A DNA stretch of 64,000 bases from Bradyrhizobium icense. GTDB taxonomy: Bacteria > Pseudomonadota > Alphaproteobacteria > Rhizobiales > Xanthobacteraceae. The notes beneath the pieces were generated by a model that saw only the letters and a list, made by a program, of their open reading frames with translations, made no database searches and was not told the origin of the DNA. Of this stretch, positions 6,198-58,136 are shown piece by piece. The stretch is from assembly GCF_001693385.1 (NCBI RefSeq), contig NZ_CP016428.1, forward strand, positions 4,154,001 through 4,218,000, written 5' to 3'. Numbering within the stretch: the first letter of the stretch is position 1; every line of letters begins with the position of its first letter. A program made the translations under genes and the position numbers.

Positions 6198-6577
6198 GAG
6201 AACCCCGGAGTTGCGCCCCCGCGGAAACGACCTTTGGTCGCGACCTGGGTCACAATGCGGCTCGAATCCGGCAAGGGGATGGATTCATTCTGGTCCGGAA
6301 ACGAGATTGAGGCCAGGGTGCCTGCAGCCGCGCGAAAGGCGTCCAAGGTGGCTTCTTCCTCGTCTCGAACCTCGATAGGTCGTTGAAACTCAGCAAGTCA
6401 TGTTGCTGACAGCATCGATGTGGCGGGAACCGCCCCATGCACCGCTGCACCTCGTCCGGAGTCGCGCATGACAGTGCGGCTGTCGCGCACCCCTCTCGCT
6501 GCACCACGAACATCCAGAGCGCGTGGCCGGCCTCCTTCACCAGAATGCGCCGTGGCTGCTGCGCTAAGCGGCTGGCG
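6198..6577. other. Intergenic region without a supported gene
   Basis: 380 bases between the divergent exported-protein gene and the threonine leader. Open frames on the minus strand (for example 6250-6603) show no family signal or ribosome site that I would trust. Confidence 0.4.
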
Positions 6578-6606
6578 TTGACGCCTGAGCGCTTTACCGC
6601 CATACA
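6578..6606 (+). promoter_or_regulatory. Promoter of the thrS-like leader transcript
   Basis: TTGACG at 6578-6583, a 17-base spacer and CATACA at 6601-6606. Only six bases separate the -10 box from the ATG of the leader ORF at 6613, so transcription should begin at or within a base or two of that ATG. The arrangement is nearly identical to the promoter upstream of asd (23157-23185). Confidence 0.55.
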
Positions 6607-6612
6607 CAGAGC

Positions 6613-6690
6613 ATGAATAAGCTTCTATCAGCCGCATCGACGACCACTGCGACCGCTTACGGCGGATCGCCTGCTGGTTGCGCGCGCTAG
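6613..6690 (+). CDS. Threonine-rich leader peptide of the thrS-like gene
   Basis: A 25-codon ORF beginning MNKLLSAASTTTATA, with three consecutive threonine codons (10-12) and a fourth at 14. It ends at TAG 6688-6690. A strong terminator hairpin follows 17 bases later, and the downstream gene encodes a threonyl-tRNA synthetase paralogue. The composition and position are those of a ribosome-mediated attenuator: stalling at Thr codons when charged tRNA-Thr is scarce would prevent terminator formation. There is no Shine-Dalgarno sequence, which fits a leaderless start at the transcription start site. CTGGTTG at 6674-6680 could pair imperfectly (6 of 7) with CACCCAG at 6705-6711, a weak antiterminator candidate. 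The function is inferred from architecture only. Confidence 0.6.
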   Translation: MNKLLSAASTTTATAYGGSPAGCAR

Positions 6691-6707
6691 AGACAAGCGT
6701 ACTTCAC

Positions 6708-6753
6708 CCAGAAAAGGCCCCGCCGGCGACGGACGGGGCCTTTTCTGGTTTTT
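6708..6753 (+). terminator. Terminator (attenuator) before the thrS-like gene
   Basis: Perfect 15-bp inverted repeat (6708-6722 with 6734-6748), an 11-base loop, then five Ts. It sits between the threonine leader peptide and the ATG at 6798 and there is no other upstream gene on this strand for it to terminate, which favours attenuation. Confidence 0.8.
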
Positions 6754-6797: not shown

Positions 6798-8029
6798 ATG
6801 GACGATCTCGACCACAGAAATCTCGGCGTGAAGCTCAAACTCTGGCACCTTCAGGAAGATGCGCCGGGCATGGTGTTCTGGCATCCGCGCGGCTACGCGC
6901 TCTACCGTGTGCTGGAGGACTATCTCCGACGCAAGATGCGCCAAGCCGGTATGCCGAGGTCCGGACGCCACAGTTGCTGCCAAAGGAGTTCTGGGGCCGC
7001 AGCGGCCACTGGGACAAGTTCGGCGAGCACATGTTCCGGGTCGACGACGGCGAGCTGGCGATGGCGCTGAAACCGATGTCGTGCCCGTGCCACGTGCAGA
7101 TCTTCAACAAAGGGCTGCGCTCGTGGCGGGAACTTCCGATCCGCTATGCCGAGTTCGGCGTTTGCCACCGCAATGAGCCTTCCGGTTCGCTCCACGGCAT
7201 CATGCGGACGCGCGCCTTCGAGCAAGACGACGCGCATGTGTTCTGCCGCGAGCAGGACGTGGAGGCCGAAGTCGCGCGCTTCATCACCCTCCTTGACGAG
7301 GTCTATCGCGACCTCGGATTTCCCGACTACGAGGTGGCGCTGGCGACGCGACCGGCGGCGCGCGCCGGCGACGACGCGACCTGGGATTGGTCAGAAGCGA
7401 AGCTCAGCGATGCCGCGCGGCGCTGCGGCCTCGCGCCTCAAATCAACCCCGGCGAAGGGGCGTTCTACGGACCGAAGCTGGAATTCGCGCTGCGCGACCG
7501 GCTGGGACGATCCTGGCAGTGCGGCACAGTGCAGCTCGACGGCGTGCTGCCGCAGCGACTCGAGGCGTCCTACGTCGCCCCCGACGGCAGCCGCGCGAGG
7601 CCCCTGATGATCCACCACGCCATCTTCGGATCGCTCGGCCGCATGATCGCGATCCTGCTCGAGCACCATGGCGGCGTGTTACCGTTCTGGCTGTCACCGG
7701 ACCAGGTCGCGGTCGCGCCGATCTCGAAAGACCAGGCCGGATACGGCGCGGACGTTCTGGCGGCGTTCGAGGATGCCGGGATCCGGGCCGTTGCCTATGA
7801 CGGCGCCGATACTCTTTCGCGGCGCATCGTGGCTGCGCATGAAATGGCGGTGCCGGTGATGGCTGTTGTCGGCGGGCGCGAGATGAGGGACGGCCGGGTG
7901 AGCCTGCGCGAGCGCGACGGCTCACAGGCCGACGTTCCGCTGGCCGAGGCGGTGTCCCGCCTGCAGGCGAGGGCCCGGCCAGGTGCCCTTGTGGCTGAAG
8001 CCTTGCAACCCGCGGACGCGGGATCCTAG
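6798..8029 (+). pseudogene. Short threonyl-tRNA synthetase paralogue, frameshifted
   Basis: Encodes about 410 residues of the class II ThrRS catalytic and anticodon-binding domains without the N-terminal TGS and editing domains of full ThrRS. Recognisable signatures are [19 protein letters not shown], the KPMSCPCHVQIF segment with the zinc cysteine, RAFEQDDAHVFC, and HHAIFGSLGRMIAILLEHHGG with the third zinc ligand. The C-terminal anticodon-binding domain begins near LSPDQVAVAPI. The ATG at 6798 has AAGGAA upstream. One base is missing near 6949 (QAG then [10 protein letters not shown] in another frame), splitting the gene into 6798-7070 and the remainder. This is a real lesion or a sequence error. 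A full-length thrS presumably exists elsewhere. The upstream leader and terminator suggest threonine-responsive control. Confidence 0.8.
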
Positions 8030-20425: not shown

Positions 20426-21941
20426 AGGCTGTGAATCTTTCATTTCGGCTTGGCGGATGTAGCGGAGATCAAGGCGGTCGTGATTCTCTATGTGCGTTGA
20501 TTCGCCGGAGAGAATAATGGCTGACGAAGGGCTCTTTGGAGAATTGCCGGAACAGGTAAAGCCCCGAGCGGGTGCGGAGCCGCGTGGAGCGCCGCGACTG
20601 CGCGAGCCAATGCGCGAGCAGATCGAACTTCGCGCTGTGGATATCGAGAGCCTGATCGGGCAAGAGCATCCGGCGCGCGTGATCTGGGGCTATGTTGAGG
20701 GGCTGGACCTGAGCGAGCTTGAGGATCGGGTCAAGGCGCGGGAGAATACGCCCGGCCATCCGCCGCCATCGCCACGACTGCTGCTGGCTCTTTGGCTTTA
20801 CGCCACGAGCGATGGCGTGGGCAGCGCGCGTGCCTTGGCCCGCCTCTGCGAGAACCATGACGTCTATCGCTGGCTCTGTGGCGGGGTGTCGATGAACTAT
20901 CACACGCTGTCGGACTTCCGGGTCGGTTGTGCCGACCTGCTCGACCGGTTGCTGAGCGAGCATCTGGCGGCGCTGAGCAAGGCGGGGCTGGTCGATCTGG
21001 AGAAGTTGACCCAAGACGGGGTGCGGATACGGGCCAATGCGGGGACCGGATCGTTCCGGCGCGAGGCGACGCTGGATCGGCAGATGGCGCAGGCCCAGGC
21101 GATAGTGGAGGAGCTGAAGCGCGAGGTCGATGCGGATCCGGAAGCCAGCAATCGGCGCATCCGGGCCGCCAGGGAGCGCGCGGCGCGCGAACGCAGCGAG
21201 CGCGTACAGGCTGCGCAAGCGGCGCTGGCCGAGATCAAGCGCAAGCGAAAGCAACTCGACGAGAAGGGCGGCAATGGCAAAAAGCCGAAGGAACCGCGGG
21301 CCTCTACCACAGACCCGCAGGCACGGGTGATGAAGATGGCGGATGCCGGCTTCCGTCCAGCCTACAACGTGCAGGTGGCCAGTGCAGCGGGCGAGCTGAT
21401 CGTGGTCACGGTCGATGTCGATAACAATGGATCGGATCGCGGCCTGATGCGGCCGATGCTGGAACGAACGCGCTCACTGCTGGGCTGCTTTCCCCGCCGC
21501 CACCTCGTCGATGGCGGGTTCTGCAGCGCCGAGGACATCGAGTGGGCGCATGGCAAAGGCGTTGACGTCTACTGCCCACCAACACAATCCAGGAGTGGCA
21601 TCGATCCTTATTTGCCCCGGCCCGGCGACAGCCCGGGCGTGTTGGCCTGGCGTGCCCGCATGGCCAGCGAAGATGGCAAGGCGCAGTACCGAGCCCGCAC
21701 GATCTGCGAATGCATCCATGCCCGCTGGCGCAACTGGGACCTGCGGCAATTGACCGTCCGCGGCATCGACAAGGTCCGCGCCGTCGTGCTCTGGTTCGCG
21801 CTCACCAACAACATCTTGCAGGGCCACCGTCTCGCCAAAACCTAGTGGCACCGCCAACGTCCGTCTCTTCACAACGGTCGGATCAACTCACACCCTGACC
21901 TCGCCTTGCCAATCCCCGCGGACCCAAAAGCTTCACAGGCT
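20426..21941 (+). mobile_element. IS1182-family insertion sequence, apparently intact
   Basis: The 1,516-bp element is bounded by imperfect terminal inverted repeats (left aggctgtgaatctttc; right, read inward, agcctgtgaagctttt). The 5 bases ctacg occur on both sides (20421-20425 and 21942-21946) as a target duplication. It contains one uninterrupted transposase gene. Confidence 0.75.
20517..21845 (+). CDS. IS1182-family transposase
   Basis: 442 residues from the ATG at 20517 with GGAGAG 5 bases upstream. The N-terminal part contains the family region ELRAVDIESLIGQEHPARVIW and YRWLCGGVSMNYHTLSDFR. Candidate catalytic acids are in TQDGVRIRANA, LVDGGFCS and the late glutamate in RTICECIHARW. 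A charged coiled-coil insert (residues 180-260) separates the first two. The ORF is uninterrupted, so the enzyme may be active. Confidence 0.93.
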   Translation: MADEGLFGELPEQVKPRAGAEPRGAPRLREPMREQIELRAVDIESLIGQEHPARVIWGYVEGLDLSELEDRVKARENTPGHPPPSPRLLLALWLYATSDGVGSARALARLCENHDVYRWLCGGVSMNYHTLSDFRVGCADLLDRLLSEHLAALSKAGLVDLEKLTQDGVRIRANAGTGSFRREATLDRQMAQAQAIVEELKREVDADPEASNRRIRAARERAARERSERVQAAQAALAEIKRKRKQLDEKGGNGKKPKEPRASTTDPQARVMKMADAGFRPAYNVQVASAAGELIVVTVDVDNNGSDRGLMRPMLERTRSLLGCFPRRHLVDGGFCSAEDIEWAHGKGVDVYCPPTQSRSGIDPYLPRPGDSPGVLAWRARMASEDGKAQYRARTICECIHARWRNWDLRQLTVRGIDKVRAVVLWFALTNNILQGHRLAKT

Positions 21942-21954
21942 CTACGGTCGCCCC

Positions 21955-22980
21955 TCACGCCATCGCGCGCTGCGGCAATAGCTCCGCGATCTGGATCGCA
22001 TTCAAGGCCGCGCCCTTCAGCAGCTGATCGGCCGACACGAACATCGAGATCGAGTGGCCGGAGGCATCGCTGAGGTCCTTGCGGATGCGACCGACGAGAA
22101 CGTCGTCCTGGCCGGACGCATCGATCGGCATCGGAAAGTAGTTCTTCGCGCGGTCGTCGACGATTTTGACGCCCGGCGCCTTCGACAGGATCGCGCGCAC
22201 CTCGTCCTCGGTGATCGGCTTTTCGCATTCGAAGGTGATGGCTTCGCAATGGGCGCGCAGCACCGGCACGCGGACGCAGGTGACGCCGATCGCGATCTTG
22301 TCGTCCTCGAAGATCTTGCGTGTCTCCTTGATCACCTTGGTCTCTTCGTCGTTGTAGCCGGTCTCGGGGTCGATCGCGGTGTTGTGGCTGAAGACGTTGA
22401 ACGCGTAGGGGAGCGGGATCACCTTGGGCGTGAAAGGCCGGCCGTCCAGATAGGCGCGGGTCGACTCCACGAGCTCTTCCATCGCGGCCGCGCCTGCGCC
22501 GCTTGCCGCCTGGTAGGTCGAGACGATCATGCGCTTGATGCGGTTCTGGCGGTGGATCGGCCACAGCGGCACCAGCGCGGTGATGGCCGAGCAGTTCGGG
22601 TTGGCGATGATGCCCTTGTGGTCGCGGATGCGGCCCGCATTGATCTCGGGGATCACCAGCGGTACGTTCGGGTCCATCCGGAACGCCGAGGAATTGTCGA
22701 CCACGACCGCGCCGGCCTTCACGGCAGCGGGCGCGAACTTGCGCGAGATGCCGCCGCCGGCCGAGAACAGCGCGATGTCGACGCCTTCGAACGACTTTTC
22801 GGTGAGCTCCTCGATGACGATCTTCTCGCCGCGGAAGTCGATGGTCTTGCCGGCCGAGCGGGCGCTCGCCAGCGCCTTGAGCTTGCCGACGGGAAAATGG
22901 CGCCTGTCCATGGTGGCGATGAATTCGGCGCCGACCGCGCCGGTCACGCCGACGATGGCAACAACGGGTTCGTGGCTCAC
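21955..22980 (-). CDS. asd: Aspartate-semialdehyde dehydrogenase
   Basis: Reduces aspartyl phosphate to aspartate semialdehyde, the branch point to lysine/diaminopimelate, threonine and methionine. 341 residues from a GTG at 22980, chosen because AGAGG lies 8 bases upstream; an in-frame ATG at 23004 has no ribosome site. Motifs: nucleotide-binding VAIVGVTGAVG, active-site cysteine in NPNCSAI and YQAASGAGAAAMEEL. Between the promoter and this gene lie a Thr/Lys-rich 23-residue leader peptide and a terminator (see 23018-23148), so expression is probably controlled by attenuation. Confidence 0.97.
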   Translation of the reverse strand: MSHEPVVAIVGVTGAVGAEFIATMDRRHFPVGKLKALASARSAGKTIDFRGEKIVIEELTEKSFEGVDIALFSAGGGISRKFAPAAVKAGAVVVDNSSAFRMDPNVPLVIPEINAGRIRDHKGIIANPNCSAITALVPLWPIHRQNRIKRMIVSTYQAASGAGAAAMEELVESTRAYLDGRPFTPKVIPLPYAFNVFSHNTAIDPETGYNDEETKVIKETRKIFEDDKIAIGVTCVRVPVLRAHCEAITFECEKPITEDEVRAILSKAPGVKIVDDRAKNYFPMPIDASGQDDVLVGRIRKDLSDASGHSISMFVSADQLLKGAALNAIQIAELLPQRAMA

Positions 22981-23017
22981 GGGTCTATCCTCTGGTTTAA
23001 GCATATGCTTGCGGGCA

Positions 23018-23051
23018 ATAAAAAAGCCCCGGTCCTTTTCAGGCGGGGCTT
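23018..23051 (-). terminator. Terminator (attenuator) before asd
   Basis: Read on the minus strand: aagccccg, a 12-base loop, cggggctt, then a run of Ts (ttttttatt). It sits between the leader peptide stop and the asd start. Its left arm (agcccc) can instead pair with ggggct inside the leader ORF (23096-23103), giving an alternative antiterminator. Confidence 0.8.
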
Positions 23052-23076
23052 CGGTTCGGATGATGCGGTCGTTCGA

Positions 23077-23148
23077 CTACGCGCGCGCGGCTCCCGAGCC
23101 CCCAGAGGGTGCTTTGGTTTTCGCGGTCGCTTTGGTCGAAGTCGTCAT
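23077..23148 (-). CDS. Threonine/lysine-rich leader peptide of asd
   Basis: A 23-codon ORF starting MTTSTKATAKTK; five of the first twelve residues are threonine and three are lysine, two end products of the pathway served by asd. It ends in TAG, 26 bases before the terminator hairpin. The late codons TCT GGG GGC TCG GGA contain gggggctcgg, which can pair with ccgaagcccc at the left arm of the terminator (nine pairs with one bulge); ggctcgggagcc can fold on itself. A ribosome finishing the peptide would cover this segment and allow termination; one stalled at Thr/Lys codons would leave it free. No Shine-Dalgarno precedes the ATG, fitting a leaderless transcript. Function is inferred. Confidence 0.65.
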   Translation of the reverse strand: MTTSTKATAKTKAPSGGSGAARA

Positions 23149-23156
23149 GGCGCGGA

Positions 23157-23185
23157 CTTATGCGGCAGCTTTGAGCTGCCGTCAA
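23157..23185 (-). promoter_or_regulatory. Promoter of the asd leader transcript
   Basis: On the minus strand: TTGACG (23185-23180), 17-base spacer, CATAAG (23162-23157), then 8 bases to the leader ATG at 23148. The predicted transcription start is at or next to the ATG. Confidence 0.6.
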
Positions 23186-57740: not shown

Positions 57741-58136
57741 TTGATTCCTACATTCAAAATTGAGATTAACAACGAAAACGACGATCAAGTCGAAACCAAC
57801 AAGGCGGAACTATCAGAGTATCTATTCGGAAAGCTTCGGCCAATATCGGAGTCGAGACGATCTGGTTTATACGCGATGTTCGGGTCTCAACGTGAGATCA
57901 CGGAATTCGGTCTGTTCATCTACAAGTCCGGGGACGGCATGAATAGATGCCGTCTGCGGGGCAGTGTCAGTTACACATCGGAATGGGACTTCGAGGACAT
58001 TACAGAACAGGATTCTGTTCAAATGTATGTCTACCTATCAGCAGAGAAATTCGATCAGCTTATGAACTTTGTTAAGTTTCCTAGGCCGACGGGTGCAGAG
58101 ATTCGATTGACCGGCGTCTCGCGGCACTCGGCTTGA
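57741..58136 (+). CDS. Hypothetical protein of low-GC type
   Basis: 131 residues from a TTG (57741); no ATG is in frame upstream. The sequence (MIPTFKIEINNENDDQVETN, then EFGLFIYKSGDGMNRC) is Asn/Lys/Asp-rich and lower in GC than its surroundings, suggesting foreign origin. Balanced composition favours a real protein; no family recognised. Confidence 0.5.
   Translation: MIPTFKIEINNENDDQVETNKAELSEYLFGKLRPISESRRSGLYAMFGSQREITEFGLFIYKSGDGMNRCRLRGSVSYTSEWDFEDITEQDSVQMYVYLSAEKFDQLMNFVKFPRPTGAEIRLTGVSRHSA

Follow-up and report, generated by a model that had tools for sequence, protein, structure and literature searches.

A Conserved Thr/Lys-Rich Leader ahead of a Second asd Gene in Bradyrhizobium: A Very Likely Ribosome-Mediated Transcription Attenuator

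Introduction

Ribosome-mediated attenuation is a classic mechanism. In Escherichia coli, the thrL leader carries Thr and Ile codons, precedes the thrABC genes, and has a ribosome binding site before it, and in the rhizobial trp attenuator the control codons are those for Trp. The enzyme encoded by asd makes the intermediate from which the pathways to lysine, threonine, and methionine branch. As set out in the sections of PMC10117765 that deal with it, the rhizobial trp attenuator (trpL/rnTrpL) has a leaderless leader ORF, yields a terminated small RNA, and belongs to trpE. In the Rhodobacterales, the uORFC-8-2 motif lies before cysS, and its leader ORF, with Cys codons, has been proposed as a ribosome-mediated attenuator (PMC8632094, in the part concerned with this motif). 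A translated sORF of Sinorhizobium meliloti, SEP5, has six Thr and three Lys residues near its end and is located in the 5'-UTR of an “aspartate dehydrogenase” gene; the portion of PMC10117765 that treats it suggests a possible leader peptide and calls it conserved only in Sinorhizobium. Apart from that suggestion, we found no asd attenuator in the literature, mainly open-access, and the papers found there contain no account of an asd2 attenuator with a terminator and an antiterminator, of a wide spread of such leaders, or of a difference in their output.

In this article, we describe a Thr/Lys-rich leader ORF ahead of an asd gene, here called asd2, in Bradyrhizobium icense. The locus lies in a stretch of 64,000 nucleotides, the whole of which was analysed and is referred to as the window. 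The leader resembles trpL/rnTrpL in being, as we infer, a leaderless leader attenuator, and differs from it in having Thr and Lys codons and asd2 in place of Trp codons and trpE. Like thrL, it belongs to the aspartate pathway and has control codons for Thr and for a second amino acid; in contrast to thrL, the second amino acid is Lys and not Ile, the gene is asd2 and not thrABC, and no SD-like motif stands where thrL has its ribosome binding site. Both uORFC-8-2 and the asd2 leader are alphaproteobacterial leader ORFs, whereas Cys codons and cysS are found only in the former. Like SEP5, the asd2 leader is a Thr/Lys-rich sORF ahead of its gene.

We consider it very likely that the asd2 leader acts as a ribosome-mediated transcription attenuator and that its signals are charged tRNA-Thr and tRNA-Lys. 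The grounds are its anatomy, its conservation, its codon bias, and the predicted dependence of its structure on the position of a stalled ribosome. A conserved leader of this kind may offer a testable account of how flux at the branch point is set in soil and plant-associated bacteria.

The Gene behind the Leader

The asd gene of the window is encoded on the minus strand at 21955..22980, with a GTG start at 22980 that is preceded by AGAGGA (22993-22988), and its protein passes the cut-offs of both NCBIfam NF011456 (441.6 bits) and TIGR01296, asd_B (410.3 bits). The genome of the strain (8.32 Mb, one contig) holds two asd genes, and the canonical copy, at C1:8180418-8181410, is 45% identical to the copy in the window. 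Among the matches listed, an asd gene like the window's copy is present in 92 of the 98 genomes of the genus and absent from the other six (G032, G041, G048, G053, G097, and G091, the last of which is without any match); outside the genus, identity above 60% is reached in two genomes among the matches listed, G170 (81%) and G327 (63%). Judged by these sequence comparisons, the gene is a lineage-restricted second paralogue (asd2) and not the canonical asd.

It should be mentioned that, in the 6 kb around the canonical copy, the ORF upstream was read by eye as leuB. Near asd2, an IS1182-family transposase gene (20490-21845, plus strand) is separated from the 3' end of asd2 by about 110 bases; the nearest plasmid match of the element (79%) is from Bradyrhizobium, and the other 18 records are from Rhizobium.

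Organization and Conservation of the Leader Unit

The leader unit runs on the minus strand from 23185 to 22980 in the order promoter, 23-codon ORF, intrinsic terminator, and asd2. By direct reading, the promoter (23157..23185) consists of TTGACG (23185-23180), a spacer of 17 bases, and CATAAG (23162-23157), and 8 bases lead from there to the leader ATG at 23148. The ORF, MTTSTKATAKTKAPSGGSGAARA (23077..23148, 23 codons and TAG), is probably leaderless and has five Thr and three Lys within residues 1-12, the Thr/Lys codons lying at positions 2-12. The AGCCCC of the terminator starts 26 bases past the leader stop, and the whole terminator, AAGCCCCGCC-TGAAAA-GGACCGGGGCTTTTTT (23020..23052), includes a U run of six T (23025-23020). 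A preliminary description of this DNA had proposed the same promoter, ORF, amino acid content, and terminator distance, with asd downstream, and all of these were found on the minus strand as described. Among the 2521 short-ORF starts of the whole window (8-60 amino acids, nested starts included), at least eight T or K in 12 residues are seen only in the asd2 leader and in an ORF at 57760 (plus strand, TTG start). A generic promoter and terminator scan of the window reported neither the promoter of the asd2 leader nor its terminator, and folding of the whole leader gave no greater stability than that of its shuffles (z -0.80). A near-perfect inverted repeat in the promoter spacer, GGCAGCT-CAA-AGCTGCC (23164-23180, minus strand), was discarded as support; relatives such as L003 lack it.

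The conservation of the unit was counted in 97 asd2 upstream regions: those of 91 genomes of the genus, the second copies of G071 and G076, and those of G199, G216, G232, and G170, which is of another genus; a partial asd2 gene in G051 was excluded. The 97 sequences are related, and the counts are not independent. Four further regions of the genus (G487, G504, G567, and G576) bring the total to 101. The preliminary description had named loss of the ORF in close relatives as the observation that would speak against it. This loss was looked for, and the Thr/Lys leader ORF is retained in 100 of the 101 regions and the U-run terminator in all of them; G504, G567, and G576 have both the leader frame and the terminator. 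In the remaining genome, G487 (L126, L204), the start, the Thr/Lys codons, and the terminator are kept, and the frame continues past the terminator because the usual stop of the leader does not lie in frame. With leader ORFs selected by a Thr plus Lys count of at least six, all 97 regions have an ORF of 22-24 codons with 6-10 Thr plus Lys among its first 13 residues, and the common leader sequence is MFTTTKRTTKTTTA(F/S/P)GARGGVRA.

TTGAC is found in 95 of the 97 counted regions, CATAAG in 94, and both in 92; where both are found, the spacer is 17 bases in every case (92/92) and the gap from CATAAG to the ATG is 8 bases in 86. The two regions that lack TTGAC belong to the second copies of G071 and G076. 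No SD-like motif was found in the 20 bases ahead of the leader ATG in any of the 97 regions, and this, together with the nearly fixed distance between the -10 element and the ATG, fits a putative leaderless start. The extra asd2 copies of G071 and G076 (L116, L117) have the leader and differ in their -35 region.

In the terminator, 99.1% of the pair cells are standard, and the hairpin has a predicted energy of -13.5 to -18.7 kcal/mol. One might suppose that this hairpin is simply a constitutive terminator, or the end of a transcript unrelated to asd2, and that asd2 is expressed from another promoter, and the 39 bases between the U run and the asd2 start would leave space for such an arrangement. 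However, the order of ORF, terminator, and asd2 is kept in the regions read, and 92 of 97 have the promoter motif, whereas the stretch between the terminator and asd2 itself varies widely in length and sequence, and we regard an unrelated terminator as highly unlikely. A lysine riboswitch or a T-box would suit a pathway whose end products include lysine and threonine, but at the gathering score Rfam matches a single tRNA in the window and nothing else; this reading of the asd2 leader was rejected, and we find it scarcely credible.

Thr is encoded at leader positions 5, 8, and 11 in 94, 92, and 95 of the 97 regions, and Lys at positions 6 and 10 in 95 and 92. Of the 234 Lys codons in the asd2 leaders, 215 are AAA. 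The corresponding counts are 2 of 353 for 19 asd2 genes from the genus and 96 of 338 for 21 mechanically derived ORFs of the window, some of which are possibly false. Of the Lys codons at the named loci of relatives (the best 80 of 592), AAA accounts for 186 of 216 in the leaders and for 94 of 1373 in asd genes. All these codon counts rest on related sequences. At the other end of the leader (23077-23088, minus strand), most relatives have GTGCGCGCG-TAG, the nucleotides of which are nearly invariant; this end resembles the ends of other leaders of this type, and pairing accounts for only part of its constancy.

How the Leader May Work

Four segments on the minus strand, in addition to the 3' arm of the terminator, enter into the proposed switch. 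Region 1, AGCACCC (23107..23113, codons 12-14), is predicted to pair with region 2 if no ribosome is stalled upstream. Region 2, GGGGGCTCGG (23094..23103, codons 16-19), is the antiterminator strand, and its predicted partner is region 3, CCGAAGCCCC (23045..23054), which also serves as the 5' arm of the terminator (regions 3:4) and is nearly invariant among relatives. A local hairpin, 2:2b (GGCT-CGGG-AGCC, 23089..23100), is supported by reading of the sequence and by pair counts. Both the pairing of region 2 with region 3 and this local hairpin had been pointed out in the preliminary description, and both are present.

When transcripts are truncated ahead of the 3' arm of the terminator, the 5' arm pairs with the leader at a mean probability of 0.80, versus 0.46 in codon-order-shuffled leaders; at most 3 of 60 shuffles equal the real 2:3 pairing in 63 of the 97 sequences, and more than 3 of 60 do so in 34. 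For a ribosome sitting on codon 8, the antiterminator reaches 0.81 in the real sequences versus 0.41 in random synonymous recodings, and the real sequence lies above all 25 recodings in 49 of the 97, the window's own among them, and not in the other 48. The preliminary description had also named loss of the alternative stem in close relatives as evidence against it. The stem is predicted above shuffled and recoded controls, but the pairing is weak in some sequences (0.48 in L116, 0.57 in L120) and draws no support from column-wise covariation. In a column-wise count over the 97 sequences, the 2:3 helix has no double change and its covariation falls below that of shuffles, because region 3, being also a terminator arm, hardly varies and because the bulge registers differ between clades.

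The late codons bear on a further alternative, namely that the leader sORF encodes a functional small protein, with the terminator serving simply to set it apart from asd2. Such a protein would account for the conserved length and end of the peptide (mostly ...VRA). It would not account for Lys codons that are nearly all AAA, for late codons that favour RNA pairing over their synonymous recodings, or for related leaders before canonical asd genes that have a Thr/Lys composition in common and not a sequence, and we hold it to be extremely doubtful.

In hairpin 2:2b, where the local partner of region 2 is GGAGCC, one of the four pairs covaries, being C-G in 72, G-C in 20, and unpaired in 5 of the 97 sequences; 84.8% of the cells are paired, a value reached by none of 500 shuffles, and 53 of the 97 sequences have a disrupted innermost pair. 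The upstream partners, at codons 12-14, are AGCACCC, GGCC, or AGCCC. A hairpin in the 1:2 stretch is predicted in all 97 sequences, with a mean energy of -8.2 versus -5.9 in codon-shuffled leaders; this is a modest gain, and the energy ranks within the first 5 of 100 in 18 of the 97.

The dependence of these structures on a ribosome was explored with a stall model, in which the RNA is folded without the part that extends to 12 bases from the first base of the codon at which the ribosome has stalled, the 3' arm of the terminator being still unmade. The model is thermodynamic, and the 12-base footprint is assumed. For the 97 sequences, the mean antiterminator probability is 0.57-0.60 with the ribosome at codons 2-3 and 0.81-0.82 at codons 4-12; it falls to 0.55, 0.46, and 0.41 at codons 13-15, to 0.20 at codon 16, and to 0.06 or less from codon 17. 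In the free RNA, the mean is 0.24, with a range from 0 to 0.99. The window's own sequence gives 0.85-0.86 at codons 4-12 and 0.03 when free. The sensitive span of the model coincides with the Thr/Lys block. The profile therefore points to termination as the default in untranslated RNA, antitermination upon stalls at Thr/Lys codons, and termination after full translation, and the model predicts which leader codons should matter.

From these observations, we infer a start of transcription, a stalling of ribosomes, and a response to Thr and Lys that would operate as follows. Transcription would start at or beside the leader AUG, and ribosomes would therefore load on a leaderless leader ORF. With Thr and Lys in abundance, the ribosome would pass through the late codons and cover region 2, so that the terminator 3:4 would form and transcription would stop ahead of asd2. 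When Thr or Lys is scarce, a stall in codons 4-12 would leave region 2 free for region 3; the 2:3 pairing would then block the terminator, and asd2 would be transcribed. In an untranslated leader, region 2 would mostly be held by the upstream leader sequence and the local hairpin, which would make termination the likely default.

A leader ORF with codons for pathway products and a terminator between this ORF and asd2 are both in place, and an antiterminator that excludes the terminator in dependence on the stall position is predicted by folding. The Thr/Lys attenuator interpretation given in the preliminary description is in this way supported. By analogy with rnTrpL and peTrpL in Sinorhizobium, the terminated leader RNA or the leader peptide might instead act chiefly in trans, with cis attenuation as a secondary function. 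Both rnTrpL and peTrpL are reported to act beyond cis attenuation in the relevant parts of PMC7298713 and PMC10117765, and the late codons GTGCGCGCG-TAG of the asd2 leader seem to be constant beyond the needs of pairing. An objection to this possibility is that action in cis already explains the terminator, the antiterminator, and the stall dependence, and we think a mainly trans-acting leader unlikely.

Thr/Lys Leaders before the Canonical asd Gene

Leaders rich in Thr and Lys are also located before canonical asd genes. In other families of the order, a short frame with at least seven Thr/Lys in 12 residues is found at 31 of 52 canonical asd loci; for the antisense strand the count is 1 of 52, and among shuffles the rate is 0.19%. 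In the family of B. icense itself, the genus included, one of 28 non-asd2 copies has such a frame (L041), and the five canonical asd copies that were read in the genus (L176-L179 and L190) have no Thr/Lys leader. Among 80 named loci, which are the best 80 of 592 related to the query L146, 67 have at least seven T or K in 12 amino acids, and these 67 span Mesorhizobium, Rhizobium, Sinorhizobium, Brucella, Roseibium, and others. Eight of the 13 named loci under the cut (again among the best 80 of 592) reach six; those that fall short of it include Xanthobacter, Ancylobacter, and Methylobacterium.

In Sinorhizobium psoraleae and S. americanum (L277, L278), the frame before canonical asd is SKTTAKTTTKTV, in which six Thr and three Lys occur towards the end. 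Because these frames match its composition, SEP5 is very probably the canonical-asd member of the Thr/Lys leaders, and a Thr/Lys leader of canonical asd would account for this translated Sinorhizobium sORF. L277 and L278 have no U run, whereas the asd2 leader belongs to a different paralogue and has a U-run terminator and a predicted antiterminator.

This difference extends to the canonical-asd leaders more generally, which have the Thr/Lys-rich sORF of the asd2 leader and not its output structure. A U run of at least five T is present in 4 of the 67 canonical-asd spacers (from the best 80 of 592) versus all 97 of the asd2 regions. A stretch that follows the leader, such as CCCUCUCC or GCUCUCU, has its complement close to the canonical asd start (GGAGAGGG or AGAGAGC); the longest complementary match in the spacers averages 7.06, versus 5.53 in base-shuffled sequences, and is at least 7 in 53 of the 67 (from the best 80 of 592). 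RNAalifold on 62 canonical-asd spacers gave a weak consensus (-5.64) without the proposed stem at the asd ribosome site. Tentatively, these complementary segments suggest that the canonical-asd leader may exert translational control by hiding the ribosome site of asd.

It is conceivable that one Thr/Lys asd sensor is distributed across much of the Hyphomicrobiales and that its output has been changed, acting on translation at canonical asd (CUCUCC with GGAGAG) and on transcription at Bradyrhizobium-like asd2, with the same leaderless frame also used for a thrS-like gene and perhaps for others. Taken as a whole, this reading appears to us slightly more doubtful than probable. If it is true, two outputs on one sensor would provide a natural comparison for the evolution of attenuators.

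Other Leader Units of This Type

A covariance model built from the 97 asd2 leaders was used to search the genome of B. icense itself. It recovers asd2 with an E-value of 1.5e-46, and the next match, at 6573-6745 of the window (plus strand), is weak (E 0.002) and goes unreported under stricter covariance-model filters. This match contains a Thr-rich leader, MNKLLSAASTTTATAYGGSPAGCAR, together with a TTGACG box and a terminator, and a thrS-like gene with a TIGR00418 match follows at 6798-8029. The leaders of asd2 and of the thrS-like gene have in common a late Arg-Ala or Ala-Arg before the stop and a GC-rich terminator. In the stall model, the MNKLLSAASTTTATAYGGSPAGCAR leader gives 0.85-0.86 at codons 10-13, which lie in its Thr stretch, 0.67-0.74 at the adjoining codons, and 0.00 in the free RNA. 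The preliminary description had counted the asd2 leader as a second attenuator, and the Thr-rich leader of the thrS-like gene is probably the first. The thrS-like frame is broken near 6948, and the two pieces match TIGR00418 separately.

The covariance model also matches units of leader and terminator at L210 (G549) and L216 (G146), ahead of genes that by eye are like the dapA family; their leaders, MITRATQRNMKHRASSGDGDLCAR and MIIRIAHLASKYRGRFGAGDARAR, are not Thr/Lys-rich. At L298, L300, L301, and L211, units with a terminator of the same type and a leader end of GGVVR, GGVAR, or GVVR stand before small genes that resemble those for DUF1127 proteins.
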